Origin: Paenibacillus sp. FSL R7-0345
Lineage (GTDB): Bacteria; Bacillota; Bacilli; Paenibacillales; Paenibacillaceae
NCBI RefSeq assembly: GCF_038595055.1
Contig: NZ_CP152002.1
Span: 1,904,501 to 1,968,500 of the forward strand
Direction: 5' to 3'
DNA: 64,000 nucleotides
The position numbers were made by a program, and so were the translations under genes. The notes beneath the pieces are model-generated. The model was not told the origin of the DNA, did no database searches, and saw only the letters and a program-made list of their open reading frames with translations. Every line of letters begins with the position of its first letter. The first letter of the stretch is position 1. Shown here piece by piece: positions 927 to 59,198 of the stretch.

Positions 927-2561
927 ATGGCGAACAATGTAATCACAGGTCTGACCTGCAGCGACATCCTGTTGATTCCCGATCTCAAGGAGGCAGTAGT
1001 GCTTGCCGGAGCGGGCGGCTTGCACCGTTACATAAATCGCGTAAACGTGATGGAGGTCCCGGATGTTATTGATTGGGTCCGGCCGGGGGAGTTCCTGATT
1101 ACGAGCGGGTTCCCCTTCCGTGACCAGCCGGATTTGATTTCAGACATGATTCCGCAGCTGAACCAAAAGGGCGTTTCTGCCCTGGGGATCAAAACCAAAC
1201 GTTTTATTGATGAGGTTCCGGCCAGGGCGCTTGAGCTTGCCGACCAGCTGGATTTCCCGATTTTTGAGCTGCCCTCGTCCACATCATTCTCTGATGTAGT
1301 CAGGGATATCATGGAGCGGGTGCTGGTGCAGGAAGCCAGGGAGCTCTCCCAGCTCCAGAGCCGGTTTCAGAAGCTGTCGAAGCAGCTGCTGCACGGTGAC
1401 GGCATTGAGGACTTTCTGCGCACGCTGGACGGAATGCTGCACAATCCGATTGTGCTTCTGGATGATATGGACCATCTGTTCTGTTCTCCGCAGGCCGAGG
1501 AGCTCGGATTTCACCGCCAGTCACCGGTCTGGCTTCAGCTCAGGGATGAGGCGAGTCTGGGCATTTGCTTCATCACCCTTGGAGAACGGCGGATCAGGGC
1601 TTATGTGTCTACAGTTAATGACAAGCAGATGAACCAGTGCCTGCTGATCTTGCTTGAATGGAACCAGGAGCTGACTATGGTCGATCAGCTGACTATTGAC
1701 AGGGTAGGTGTTCTGGTCGGACTGGAAATGATCAATGCGAACGCCCGCAGAGAAGTGGAGCTGAAGTACGTGGATCAGTTCCTGCAGGACTGGATCAGCG
1801 GCAGGATTGTGGCCGGCGAGGATCTGAAGCTGAGGGCAGAGGCCTGCGGCTGTCCGCTGCCTGATCATGCAATGACTGCAGCGGTGGTGGGCTGGCTGGA
1901 TATGAAGCCTGAGGTGAAGCAGCTGCAGCAGGCGGTGAAGAGAATCAGGACCAGGCCGGATTTACAGCATGTGAAGATGACGATCATGGAAGGCGAGCTG
2001 GCAGTTACGATAGCGGATAACGGGGACAGCCCGCTCGCCGACACTCTGCAGCGCCTGCTTACGGAGCTTAGTGCTGTTTGTGCCAAAGATACATTTGTCT
2101 TCTGCATCGGAGACAAGGTTAGCCGTCCTGATCTGGTGCATTTCAGCTATGAGTCAGCAAAAAAGATTTATCATATCCGCGAGATTTGCGATTTTCGTGA
2201 ACCGTTCATAGATTATAGAAAGCTGGGCGTCTTCAGGCTGCTGTACCATTTGCCGGAGCTTGAAGAAATCCGGGAGTACCGGGATCAGTATCTGATTCCC
2301 CTGCTTGATTACGACAACAAGCACAACGTATCCCTGCTGCAGACGCTAACCCAGTACTTCAAGAACAGCCGCAATGTAAAAAAAACCTCAGCCGCATTGT
2401 TCACTCATTATAATACCGTGACCTACAGGATTGAACGTGCCTGTGAGCTGCTGAACCTGAACTCAGATGACGGGGACGATATGCTTGAGCTTCATTTGGC
2501 TCTCAAGCTGCATGAGATGAGGCCTTATGAGAAGCAGCGTAACCCGCAGAATAGGAGATGA
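927..2561 (+). CDS. PucR-family transcriptional regulator
   Basis: A 544-residue protein with the PucR layout. An N-terminal PucR ligand domain lies at about residues 10-125 (MEVPDVIDWVRPGEFLITSG is diagnostic), then a GAF/GGDEF-like middle, and a C-terminal PucR-type helix-turn-helix at about 475-530 (KNSRNVKKTSAALFTHYNTV, then TYRIERACELL). Known members control purine and other nitrogen-heterocycle catabolism. Here it is embedded in the operon, between the cupin and the amidase, and its stop overlaps the amidase gene. That suggests it senses an intermediate of ring cleavage and controls its own operon (inference). A GGAG lies close upstream of the ATG at 927. Confidence 0.9.
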   Translation: MANNVITGLTCSDILLIPDLKEAVVLAGAGGLHRYINRVNVMEVPDVIDWVRPGEFLITSGFPFRDQPDLISDMIPQLNQKGVSALGIKTKRFIDEVPARALELADQLDFPIFELPSSTSFSDVVRDIMERVLVQEARELSQLQSRFQKLSKQLLHGDGIEDFLRTLDGMLHNPIVLLDDMDHLFCSPQAEELGFHRQSPVWLQLRDEASLGICFITLGERRIRAYVSTVNDKQMNQCLLILLEWNQELTMVDQLTIDRVGVLVGLEMINANARREVELKYVDQFLQDWISGRIVAGEDLKLRAEACGCPLPDHAMTAAVVGWLDMKPEVKQLQQAVKRIRTRPDLQHVKMTIMEGELAVTIADNGDSPLADTLQRLLTELSAVCAKDTFVFCIGDKVSRPDLVHFSYESAKKIYHIREICDFREPFIDYRKLGVFRLLYHLPELEEIREYRDQYLIPLLDYDNKHNVSLLQTLTQYFKNSRNVKKTSAALFTHYNTVTYRIERACELLNLNSDDGDDMLELHLALKLHEMRPYEKQRNPQNRR

Positions 2562-2566
2562 ACGAT

Positions 2567-4351
2567 ATGGCTATGGCCGAATTTCCGCTCAAGCTGTCTG
2601 CAGGATGGCTGCGGGACCAATACAGAAGCGGAGTGCTCACGCCGGAGACGGTTATCCGTGAAATTATCCGGCGTTCACAGGAGGATCAGGAGCTGAATAT
2701 TTGGATTGAGCCGCCGGACTACGGGCGGATACTGCCCTATCTGGAGGCTATAAGCCATTTGGACAGAGAGGATTATCCGCTATGGGGAATTCCGTTTGCG
2801 GTCAAGGATAATATAGATGTGCAGGGCTTCCCTACCACAGCTGCTTGCCCGCAATTCAGCTATATACCGGACAGACATTCCTCTGTGGTGGAGCGCTTAG
2901 TCGGTGCCGGGGCGATTCCTGTAGGCAAAAGCAACCTGGATCAATTTGCCACCGGACTGGTCGGCACAAGAAGTCCGCATGGGGCGGTGCATAACGCGCT
3001 CAGACCGGAATATATCAGCGGCGGCTCCAGCTCCGGCTCGGCAGTTGCTGTTGCCCGCGGCCAGGCAGTCTTCTCGCTGGGCACGGATACTGCCGGCTCC
3101 GGGCGTGTACCGGCAGCGCTGAACGGTCTGGTAGGGTATAAGCCCAGCCTGGGTGCCTGGCCTACCTTGGGAGTAGTCCCGGCTTGCGCCAGCCTGGACT
3201 GTGTCACGGTGTTCGCGAACAGCCTGGAGGAAGCGTTGCTGGTTGACCGGCAGGTGCGCGGCCTGGATGTATCCGATCCCTGGTCCCGCAGTATCCCCCG
3301 GCAGGCAGACCGTCGTCCTGCCAGGCTGCTGTTTCCGGCAGAGCCGCTTGGCTTCTATGGCCCTCATGAGGAGGAGTACCGGCTGGCCTGGCAAGCAGCG
3401 GGTGATTCGCTGAAGGAGCTGGGGATTCCGGTGGAATACGTGGACTGTACAATGTTCTTCGAAGCGGCTTCCATTCTGTATGATGGCCCCTGGGTAGCGG
3501 AGCGCTGGGCAGGTCTGGGAGCATTTGTGGAGAATAACCGCGCTTCCGTGCTTCCTGTCACAGAACAGATTTTATCGTCAGGAAACGGGGAACGGCATAC
3601 AGCCTCCAGCTTGTTCCAGGCCATGCACCGGCTGCAGGAGTACAAGGCTAAATCCCGCGAGCTGCTGCAGGACGCGGTGCTGGTCATGCCCACTTGTGGA
3701 GGCACCTGGACCAGAGAGCAGGTGGAGCTTAATCCGGTTGGCGCCAATTCGGATATGGGCCGCTACACCAATCACTGCAATTTGCTTGATCTGTCTGCGG
3801 TGGCTGTCCCTGCCGGAGAAGCTGCGCAGGATTTGCCGTTCGGGATCACTTTATTCGCGCTGGCGGACAGCGAGCATCTGCTGGCGGGAATGGCAGGCCT
3901 TTACCTTGGGGCTTCCGGCCTGGAAGATACGGAGCTGGCTGGGAAAGTTGAAACAGCAGATACAGCAGCAACCGTGCAGCAATATACTACGATTGCCGTC
4001 TGCGGCCTGCATATGCAGGGCTATCCGCTCGAAAAACAGATGACCGGTCACGGCGCTTATTTCTGGCGCGAGTCCAGAACGGCACCCTGCTACGATATGA
4101 TCAGACTGCAGACTGCACCTGCCAAGCCAGGTCTGCTTAAAAAAGCCCGAGGGGGAGCCTCCATTCAGCTCGAGCTATGGAAGATGCCGGTTCAATCGGT
4201 TGGCGCATTTGCAGCTCTGATTCCCGCGCCGCTTGGGCTTGGGAAGGTGGAGCTTGAGGACGGAAGTGAGGTTATAGGGTTTATCTGTGAAGGCTATGCC
4301 GAGGCAGAAGCGGAAAATATAACGGCCAGCGGCGGCTGGCGTTATGCTTGA
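2567..4351 (+). CDS. atzF: Allophanate-hydrolase-like amidase (AtzF type)
   Basis: A 594-residue amidase-signature hydrolase with the C-terminal domain of allophanate hydrolases. The Ser-cisSer-Lys triad is visible: Lys in FAVKDNIDVQGFPTTAACP, the cis-Ser in GGSSSGSAVAVARG, and the nucleophile in LGTDTAGSGRVPAALN, whose GSGRVPAA form is typical of AtzF/DUR1. The C-terminal part contains AVCGLHMQGYPLEKQM and GFICEGYA, like the second AtzF domain. AtzF cleaves allophanate (or 1,3-dicarboxyurea) to ammonia and CO2, the last step of cyanurate degradation. I prefer the ATG at 2567, nine bases after GGAG (2554-2557), over the in-frame ATG at 2558 that overlaps the pucR-like stop. No biotin-dependent urea carboxylase is nearby, so a ring-cleavage pathway fits better than urea amidolysis. 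Confidence 0.85.
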   Translation: MAMAEFPLKLSAGWLRDQYRSGVLTPETVIREIIRRSQEDQELNIWIEPPDYGRILPYLEAISHLDREDYPLWGIPFAVKDNIDVQGFPTTAACPQFSYIPDRHSSVVERLVGAGAIPVGKSNLDQFATGLVGTRSPHGAVHNALRPEYISGGSSSGSAVAVARGQAVFSLGTDTAGSGRVPAALNGLVGYKPSLGAWPTLGVVPACASLDCVTVFANSLEEALLVDRQVRGLDVSDPWSRSIPRQADRRPARLLFPAEPLGFYGPHEEEYRLAWQAAGDSLKELGIPVEYVDCTMFFEAASILYDGPWVAERWAGLGAFVENNRASVLPVTEQILSSGNGERHTASSLFQAMHRLQEYKAKSRELLQDAVLVMPTCGGTWTREQVELNPVGANSDMGRYTNHCNLLDLSAVAVPAGEAAQDLPFGITLFALADSEHLLAGMAGLYLGASGLEDTELAGKVETADTAATVQQYTTIAVCGLHMQGYPLEKQMTGHGAYFWRESRTAPCYDMIRLQTAPAKPGLLKKARGGASIQLELWKMPVQSVGAFAALIPAPLGLGKVELEDGSEVIGFICEGYAEAEAENITASGGWRYA

Positions 4352-4374
4352 TGCTAATCCCTGTAGCGGCCGGA

Positions 4375-4403
4375 TTGACAACAAATTGTGAATTGGCTAT
4401 ACT
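4375..4403 (+). promoter_or_regulatory. Sigma-A promoter of the tyrS leader
   Basis: TTGACA at 4375-4380 and TATACT at 4398-4403 are separated by 17 bp, a near-consensus vegetative promoter. Transcription would begin just upstream of the T-box leader. Confidence 0.85.
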
Positions 4404-4424
4404 TTCTGTAATCTTATAGTTTGT

Positions 4425-4675
4425 ATACGTTGAACGAGCGCAGTAGCAGCTTAGTCCCTGTCACAGAAAGCCGGGGGGTGATGGAACCCGGTACACACGA
4501 GGGCTGCGAAATACACTCTGGAGTATCTTGGGTAATGCCAAGCGGGAGCAAGCGAACGATAACTCGCTTATGAGTGGTACGGATGGGCTGATTATAGGCT
4601 TCCCGTGCAATTTGGGTGGTAACACGGTTAATTCAATCGTCCCTGTGTCTGAAGAGACAAGGGGCGATTTTTTGC
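4425..4675 (+). promoter_or_regulatory. Tyrosine T-box riboswitch with terminator
   Basis: The leader of tyrS. The lower Stem I strand (AGTA then GCAGC) pairs with GCTGC near 4504, followed by GAAATAC; this places the specifier codon TAC (Tyr) at 4512-4514. The T-box bulge GGGTGGTAACACGG lies at about 4614-4627; its TGGT would pair with the ACCA end of uncharged tRNA-Tyr. An intrinsic terminator follows: arms at about 4636-4650 and 4655-4669, then a T run. Uncharged tRNA-Tyr should favour the antiterminator and read-through into tyrS. The GTAACACGG form departs slightly from the usual GNACCGCG. Confidence 0.9.
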
Positions 4676-4808
4676 GTTTGCCGGGCTGGCTGGTTGTATG
4701 CCAACATAGCAGACATTGGCGGTCCGCGGATCTCTGCCGTACCCCGGGTGATGCTCATCCACCAACGTATCCCACTAACCATACTGATCACTAACAAAGG
4801 GGCTGTAC

Positions 4809-19361: not shown

Positions 19362-19564
19362 GCTGGACGTTAAGCCATGCTGGGTGAAGCCTCAAGATTG
19401 GACAGTAGACGACATTAATCCGTACCTAATTCGGGAATTTCCCGGGCAATTAGATCAATTTTGTAGTACTAACTAGGGATGGTTTTTACAGGCGCAGCAA
19501 AGACGGAGCACTTTTTACAAAAAAATATAATATAGATTGAACTTGAAAACTTAAATTAAGGGGA

Positions 19565-19700
19565 AAGTGGCGGAGGAGAATTTTGGAACTGGAGGAACGG
19601 AAGTGTCCGCCTTTGTCTGCGGATTTCCACCGCGAACAGCGGTATCAAACCAAGAAATCTGCAGACAACAGCGGCCGGAAGTCCAAAATACTCTGGAGTC
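19565..19700 (+). repeat. Structured intergenic repeat, copy 1
   Basis: Lies in the 19362-19763 gap between bglP and bglA. Paired segments are visible. The outer stem is ATTTTGGA (19580-19587) with TCCAAAAT (19682-19689). A small hairpin CGGA-AGTG-TCCG spans 19598-19609. The long stem is TGTCTGCGGATTTC (19614-19627) with GAAATCTGCAGACA (19654-19667): 14 pairs with one G-U. Inside its loop is ACCGC-GAACA-GCGGT (19629-19643). The 3-prime part carries ACAGCGGCCGGAAGTCC. A second copy with the same stems but different stem bases is at 58958-59130. Strand is assigned from sequence orientation only. Confidence 0.8.
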
Positions 19701-19730
19701 ACGGCCATTCCTAAAATTTACACTTTATAG

Positions 19731-21227
<1,497 letters not shown>

Positions 21228-58882: not shown

Positions 58883-58957
58883 TCAATCTTTTTGGAAATA
58901 AAATAAGGCAATGATTCAGCCTCTTAAATAAGGTTTGAACCATTAACTTTCAGGTGT

Positions 58958-59130
58958 AGCGGCGGAAGGGAAGTTTGGAACTGTAGGAGCGATAGCGCCC
59001 GCCTGAGAGCTTTCCGAAGGAAAGCTGGCTACGTAAGCATAAGCTATGTTTGGATTTCTACCGCGGCAGCGGATTAAAATCAGGAAATCCAAACATAACA
59101 GCGGCCGGAAGTCCAAACATTCCCTGCAAC
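58958..59130 (+). repeat. Structured intergenic repeat, copy 2
   Basis: It fills most of the 58883-59198 gap. The outer stem is GTTTGGA (58973-58979) with TCCAAAC (59112-59118). A small hairpin is GCG-ATAG-CGC (58989-58998). An extra hairpin absent from copy 1 is AGCTTTCC-GAA-GGAAAGCT (59008-59026). The long stem is TATGTTTGGATTTC (59045-59058) with GAAATCCAAACATA (59084-59097): 14 perfect pairs. The inner hairpin is CCGC-GGCA-GCGG (59061-59072). The 3-prime block is again ACAGCGGCCGGAAGTCC. Confidence 0.85.
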
Positions 59131-59198
59131 TGCGTACAACACCGTGAAGCGGGGTTTAAGCTTTTTTAACAGCTGAAGATATGGAGGGGAGAACATCA

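Follow-up and report, generated by a model that had tools for sequence, protein, structure and literature searches.

The closest described systems are the bcr repeats of the Bacillus cereus group, about half of whose copies lie in mRNA, in UTRs or within operons, and among which bcr10 and bcr18 are reported to have conserved secondary structure (PMC3446304). By analogy, they are the nearest precedent for repeats of this kind within mRNAs (PMC3446304). The element that we describe here resembles bcr1 and the wider bcr1-bcr18 set, known to us by description, in being a MITE-like intergenic repeat of a Gram-positive host, but it belongs to a different host group: R1, our covariance model of the element (below), matched 0 of 272 sampled genomes from other families of the class. 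RUP and BOX are repeats of Streptococcus pneumoniae (PMC3049150). The element can be likened to both, again by description, as a short intergenic repeat of a Gram-positive genome. RUP is thought to move via an IS630-type transposase at TA; the ends of our element are compatible with TA insertion, but unlike RUP it has no transposase assigned to it. REP elements are intergenic GTAG/CGTC palindromes that have been proposed to affect transcription termination or mRNA stability (PMC3733652). Our element is likewise palindromic and intergenic, but REP elements measure 20-40 bp, whereas it measures 145-258 bp and has a branched fold and, in one subfamily, terminal inverted repeats (TIRs). In its branched fold, conserved junction letters and probable position in transcripts, the element is also reminiscent of Rfam cis-regulatory families such as the T-box and riboswitches, yet it matches no Rfam family and adjoins unrelated genes.

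The window (the whole 64,000-nucleotide stretch of Paenibacillus sp. FSL R7-0345 DNA that was analysed) contains two copies of the element. An earlier note, made from the sequence alone, had picked out both as structured repeats, and we confirmed their sequences and stems at both sites. Our data show that the two copies are real members of a large, apparently undescribed repeat family of this genome and its relatives, with a repeat unit of ~220 bases and ~30-150 copies per genome across many Paenibacillus species. Copy 1, used as a query against its own genome, gave 48 matching stretches at ~40 places, and the genome holds ~32 complete copies in addition to fragments. The earlier note had proposed a covariance-model search for further copies in related genomes, and these turned out to be abundant. 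R1, which was built from 15 short copies, gave 32 matches above 60 bits in the genome itself and matched all 36 genus relatives searched and, within the same order, a few genomes from other families. We also sampled 300 genomes from the class: 27 of the 28 that belong to the same family were matched, and the rest are the 272 mentioned above. This family search rules out chance similarity between the two copies. One relative, G027, has 153 motif matches, corresponding to ~150 copies. When an exact 18-base motif was searched in one genome per species, most of the matches listed were to records bearing the name Paenibacillus, including P. wynnii, P. jilunlii, P. tritici, P. phytohabitans and P. 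typhae, and the isolated matches outside Paenibacillus look like chance. A search of phages found no match to the element, and a search of plasmids found one partial match, in a Paenibacillus plasmid. This partial copy (NZ_CP045294.1, 30112-30222, + strand, 72.7% identity) lies on a 44.7-kb plasmid of Paenibacillus guangzhouensis.

The earlier note did not recognise the fold as a known RNA, and no family in Rfam 15 matched the element at either gathering or permissive thresholds, the copies giving sub-threshold matches only; we therefore rejected the known Rfam families as an explanation. The sole gathering-level Rfam match in the window is a T-box leader at 4421-4647 (+). Outside the element, locus L351 has a sub-threshold match to RF02847 (Ref64) at 1701-1770 (-), with 34.2 bits against a gathering score of 44.3. 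A search of the open-access literature found no earlier description of the element, and the parts of the P. riograndensis transcriptome paper that we consulted contain none. The kind of element (a MITE-like transcribed repeat) is known, while the RNA family appears to be new.

The conserved part of the element is a three-way junction, AGCGNNAGCGNYCGCC...ACAGCGRYCGGAAG, of ~145 nt, or ~185 nt with an optional hairpin, which forms on the strand co-oriented with the neighbouring genes. It consists of a long closing stem (P1), a tiny GC(GNNA)GC hairpin (P2) and a P3 arm, in which a 15-bp helix is capped by a further hairpin (P4). Letters in the stems change pairwise and junction letters are conserved, with the highest conservation in unpaired and junction letters (AGCGNNAGCGNYCGCCTTT towards the 5' end, ACAGCGRYCGGAAG towards the 3' end). 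An alignment of 31 copies from the genome reveals two layouts, with and without a 39-nt insert that forms the extra hairpin and is common to about half of the copies. Copies 1 and 2 represent one layout each and belong to different subfamilies. The block said in the earlier note to be invariant at the 3' side is indeed common to both copies (ACAGCGGCCGGAAGTCC), and the shared stems that it aligned are present; it made no mention of the extra hairpin of copy 2. For the small hairpin, a compensatory change does exist (GC(GNNA)GC in the family, AC(GGAA)GT in copy 1), but the comparison of CGGA/TCCG with GCG/CGC set different helices side by side. The GCG/CGC pairing in copy 2 hinges on a C peculiar to that copy, the family hairpin being GC(GNNA)GC within AGCGNNAGCG. 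Most copies contain three AGCG motifs (window 58986-59003 and 59098-59104; family consensus AGCGNNAGCG ... ACAGCG), and CGCC could possibly pair with alternative AGCG partners to give alternative folds.

Table 1. Coordinates of the two copies of the element and of their parts in the window.
Feature	Position	Strand	Details
Complete mobile unit, copy 1	19528..19744	+	217 bp
Left terminal inverted repeat, copy 1	19528..19542	+	TAATATAGATTGAAC; family consensus CTATATAGATTGAAC
Right terminal inverted repeat, copy 1	19730..19744	-	reverse complement TTATATAGATTGAAC
Structured RNA core, copy 1	19562..19708	+	R1 match, 152 bits
P1 outer stem, 5' arm, copy 1	19573..19590	+	partner 19680-19696
Small junction hairpin region and P3a start, copy 1	19592..19609	+	AC-GGAA-GT here; family GC-GNNA-GC
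P2, copy 1	within 19592-19605		
P3a, copy 1	near 19607-19611		partner 19670-19675
P3b long stem, 5' arm, copy 1	19613..19627	+	TTGTCTGCGGATTTC; partner GAAATCTGCAGACAA 19654-19668; one G-U
P4 apical hairpin, copy 1	19630..19642	+	CCGC-GAACA-GCGG
Conserved 3' junction strand, copy 1	19669..19685	+	CAGCGGCCGGAAGTCCA
Structured core, long variant, copy 2	58954..59139	+	no intact terminal inverted repeat
Optional 39-nt insert, copy 2	59004..59043	+	extra hairpin AGCTTTCC-GAA-GGAAAGCT
P3b long stem, 5' arm, copy 2	59045..59058	+	TATGTTTGGATTTC; partner GAAATCCAAACATA 59084-59097

Both copies fold much more stably than their dinucleotide shuffles, with z-scores of -7.8 for copy 1 (19520-19755) and -4.5 for copy 2 (58935-59140). 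We aligned 135 copies to the model, including subfamilies whose stems differ greatly; the alignment is fitted to the structure and so favours it. Standard pairs fill 94.8% of its 5763 pair cells, and in 39 of its 45 pairs both sides have changed. None of 500 shuffles reached these pairing values, and pairing fell to 32-48% when partners were slid by one to three columns. Counted by single-reconstruction parsimony on a tree of the 135 copies, double-compensatory changes number ~204; with slid partners the same count came to 3-16, and with random re-pairing to 10 on average (maximum 42). Plain MAFFT alignments of the copies from the genome itself already show 14-18 pairs changed on both sides. 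Pairing is therefore far beyond chance both among the 31 copies of this genome and among the 135 copies of the family, and compensatory changes lie well above the slid and shuffled controls, as in a structured RNA. These data show that stem pairing is under strong selection, as the earlier note had claimed; stem changes are compensated, and the fold persists even where almost all stem letters differ. Two of the examples on which the note had based that claim are also correct, since the long stem differs in its bases but is paired in each copy and a T-A pair of the outer stem has become G-C. As proof of pointwise compensation, however, a comparison of these two copies would not have sufficed; the 135-copy analysis provides it. 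They belong to different subfamilies, and same-site copies in related species, in the spacer that holds copy 2, differ in stems and insert as whole blocks, indicating that the copy there has since been replaced or converted; such block changes are not pointwise compensation. Finally, G-U wobbles occupy 229 pair cells and A-C mismatches, which would be the wobbles of the opposite strand, only 52. This excess points to one strand acting in single-stranded form, as RNA or single-stranded DNA, rather than to a symmetric DNA cruciform.

The earlier note offered two readings of the repeat, as a structured RNA not yet described or as a palindromic mobile element, and we find that both hold, with a TIR-bounded carrier in some copies. 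The mobile unit of copy 1 extends beyond the 19565-19700 that had been assigned to the copy, and ends in 15-bp TIRs (TAATATAGATTGAAC and GTTCAATCTATATAA). These ends recur in further copies, of the same genome and of G003, G009 and G027, which measure 213-221 bp, or 255-260 bp with the insert; TIR spacings of 217-218 bp, as in copy 1, and of 255-258 bp are found, and the TIR in G027 is often CTATATAGAGTGAAC, with a matching opposite end. Three TIR-bounded copies of the genome are 95-97% identical end to end and have unrelated flanks, so copying is recent. Elements that lack the core are bounded by these TIRs too, with lengths of 45-96 bp in G003, G008 and G021 and, for a single one in G039, 423 bp; the core is thus cargo. 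Core-less elements lie at L328 1473-1568, L329 1478-1572, L331 1548-1642, L334 1462-1556, L332 1367-1411, L333 964-1022 and L330 1546-1968 (423 bp). We detected TIRs at both ends of a short, transposase-free element and its recent dispersal to unrelated sites, as in a MITE. Together, the near-identical copies at unrelated sites and the core-less elements indicate that at least one subfamily moves as a MITE. A TIR scan found no recognisable pair in many copies, copy 2 included. No target duplication was seen outside CTATATAG; duplication of TA at a site resembling CTAG would be compatible with the ends. A TIR-pair search of the genome found no paired TIRs around a transposase-sized insert, and hence no autonomous transposon there; among the matches listed for the relatives, TIR pairs enclosed only element-sized or shorter stretches, plus the one of 423 bp. 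The ends of the element are often directly adjoined by a second repeat, GGAATTAAGTGCCGAAAATCCAACTA (left flanks of L019, L030, L037 and L046 and right flank of L025, all in the genome itself), as if the element used it as an insertion site.

Copy 1 lies in a spacer flanked by genes for a beta-glucoside-type PTS protein and a GH1 glycosidase, and has the same orientation as both; copy 2 separates two neighbouring peptidase U32 genes that run in the same direction. This U32 spacer bears the element in some relatives (L199, L200), and in others (e.g. L206, L210, L201) it is very short or else empty, which also speaks for mobility. We counted orientation for the 195 model-matched copies with called ORFs on both sides at ≤500 nt, and found 108 tandem co-oriented, 18 tandem anti-oriented (p = 8e-17), 40 convergent and 29 divergent copies. 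Because ORFs were called by length alone, individual cases are noisy. This count was used in place of an earlier regex-based one (35 to 1) that left out many copies. Copies antisense to both neighbours make up ~9% of those counted (18 of 195). Among TIR-bounded copies the bias is 25 co-oriented to 2 anti-oriented, and since it is not obvious why equal TIRs should orient an insertion, selection acting afterwards is the more probable cause. In divergent subfamilies the tandem bias is less marked (19 to 8), and in distant families, where genomes carry one or two copies, several are antisense to both neighbours. Orientation also tracks replication, for 30 of the genome's 32 copies and for 79 of the 91 exact motif matches in G027, as counted by hand from listed coordinates with the contig start assumed to be the origin. 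Replication and transcription cannot be fully separated here as causes of orientation, as G027 copies that oppose replication provide too few informative cases. Consensus scans of the two window spacers found no promoter-like or terminator-like site, which lends weak support to read-through transcription. Both the orientation bias and the G-U excess point to action as RNA in host transcripts.

Our preferred explanation, which we consider probable, is that the element is a MITE-borne RNA module that resides in host mRNAs, mainly in the sense direction, and there shapes intercistronic mRNA processing or stability or insulates cistrons. In the subfamily that includes copy 1, the module spreads between its 15-bp TIRs as a MITE, moved by a transposase presumed to act in trans. 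Insertions occur in short spacers, often within apparent operons, and those placing the fold in an mRNA would be retained, so that most copies may be read out within host transcripts. There the fold would most likely act on processing or stability, or insulate the neighbouring cistrons. A bolder reading, possible but tentative, is that the fold is a new functional RNA class with a partner of its own (a protein, ligand or ribonuclease), wired into dozens of operons per genome throughout the Paenibacillus family by the MITE, whose cargo it is, as a mobile RNA regulon.

Alternatively, the element could be a purely selfish MITE whose fold serves its own spread, for instance as ssDNA or RNA recognised in transposition, without benefit to the host; the orientation bias would then reflect only the harm that antisense copies do to genes. 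The recent copies of TIR-bounded units, the core-less elements that share these TIRs, the tandem arrays (below), the presence or absence of copies among relatives and the unrelated functions of neighbouring genes all fit such an element. The core-less elements cut both ways, however, as they suggest that the core is dispensable for movement, and the fold is retained in further families of the order, whose genomes carry one or two copies. We regard this alternative as doubtful.

A cis-regulatory RNA proper (a riboswitch, protein-binding leader or ribozyme), by which one signal would control many operons with the MITE merely spreading it, seems to us improbable. It would account for the conserved sequence of the junction and the covarying helices, a combination also seen in known aptamers and ribozymes, for the co-orientation of most copies with the downstream gene, and for a module that is more widely spread than its TIR wrapping. 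The genes that we examined, however, lack a common function: those downstream encode a U32 peptidase, a response regulator, a DNA topoisomerase subunit, a ParB-like protein, argininosuccinate synthase, a rubredoxin, a release factor, AIR synthase and a sigma factor, and give no hint of a single regulated pathway. Furthermore, the 40 copies in convergent spacers would lie in a 3' region and not in a leader, and the two window spacers lack a terminator-like site. Least of all do we credit a mutational origin of the paired changes, in which template switching or gene conversion would copy one palindrome arm to the other: the whole-block differences at the U32 site show that conversion or replacement occurs, but arm-to-arm copying should yield perfect Watson-Crick palindromes, and is disfavoured by the common and strand-biased G-U pairs, and conservation is among the highest at unpaired junction positions.

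The element adds an apparently undescribed structured RNA, absent from Rfam release 15, that is found in most sampled genomes of the Paenibacillus family, at tens to ~150 copies in many of them. Cases in which an RNA module can be distinguished from its mobile carrier are rare, and this is one of them, since core-less elements end in the same TIRs. With TIR-bounded copies so strongly biased to the sense direction and no obvious cause in insertion, selection on transcript orientation becomes directly testable. Should mRNA processing be what the RNA acts on, this would be an example of a mobile element rewiring the stoichiometry of many operons. Better annotation can also be expected, since simple ORF calling opens ORFs across copies of the element.

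Copies also occur in arrays. In Paenibacillus sp. HW567, five tandem copies with a unit of ~199 bp lie upstream of a response-regulator-like gene (L125 2576-3520, counted on the reverse strand). Tandem clusters of at least three divergent RNA cores are found at L306 in G006, where two arrays, at 2005-3168 (-) and 3905-4725 (+), have opposite orientation, and further clusters of at least three divergent cores are present at L307, L308, L309, L311 and L312.
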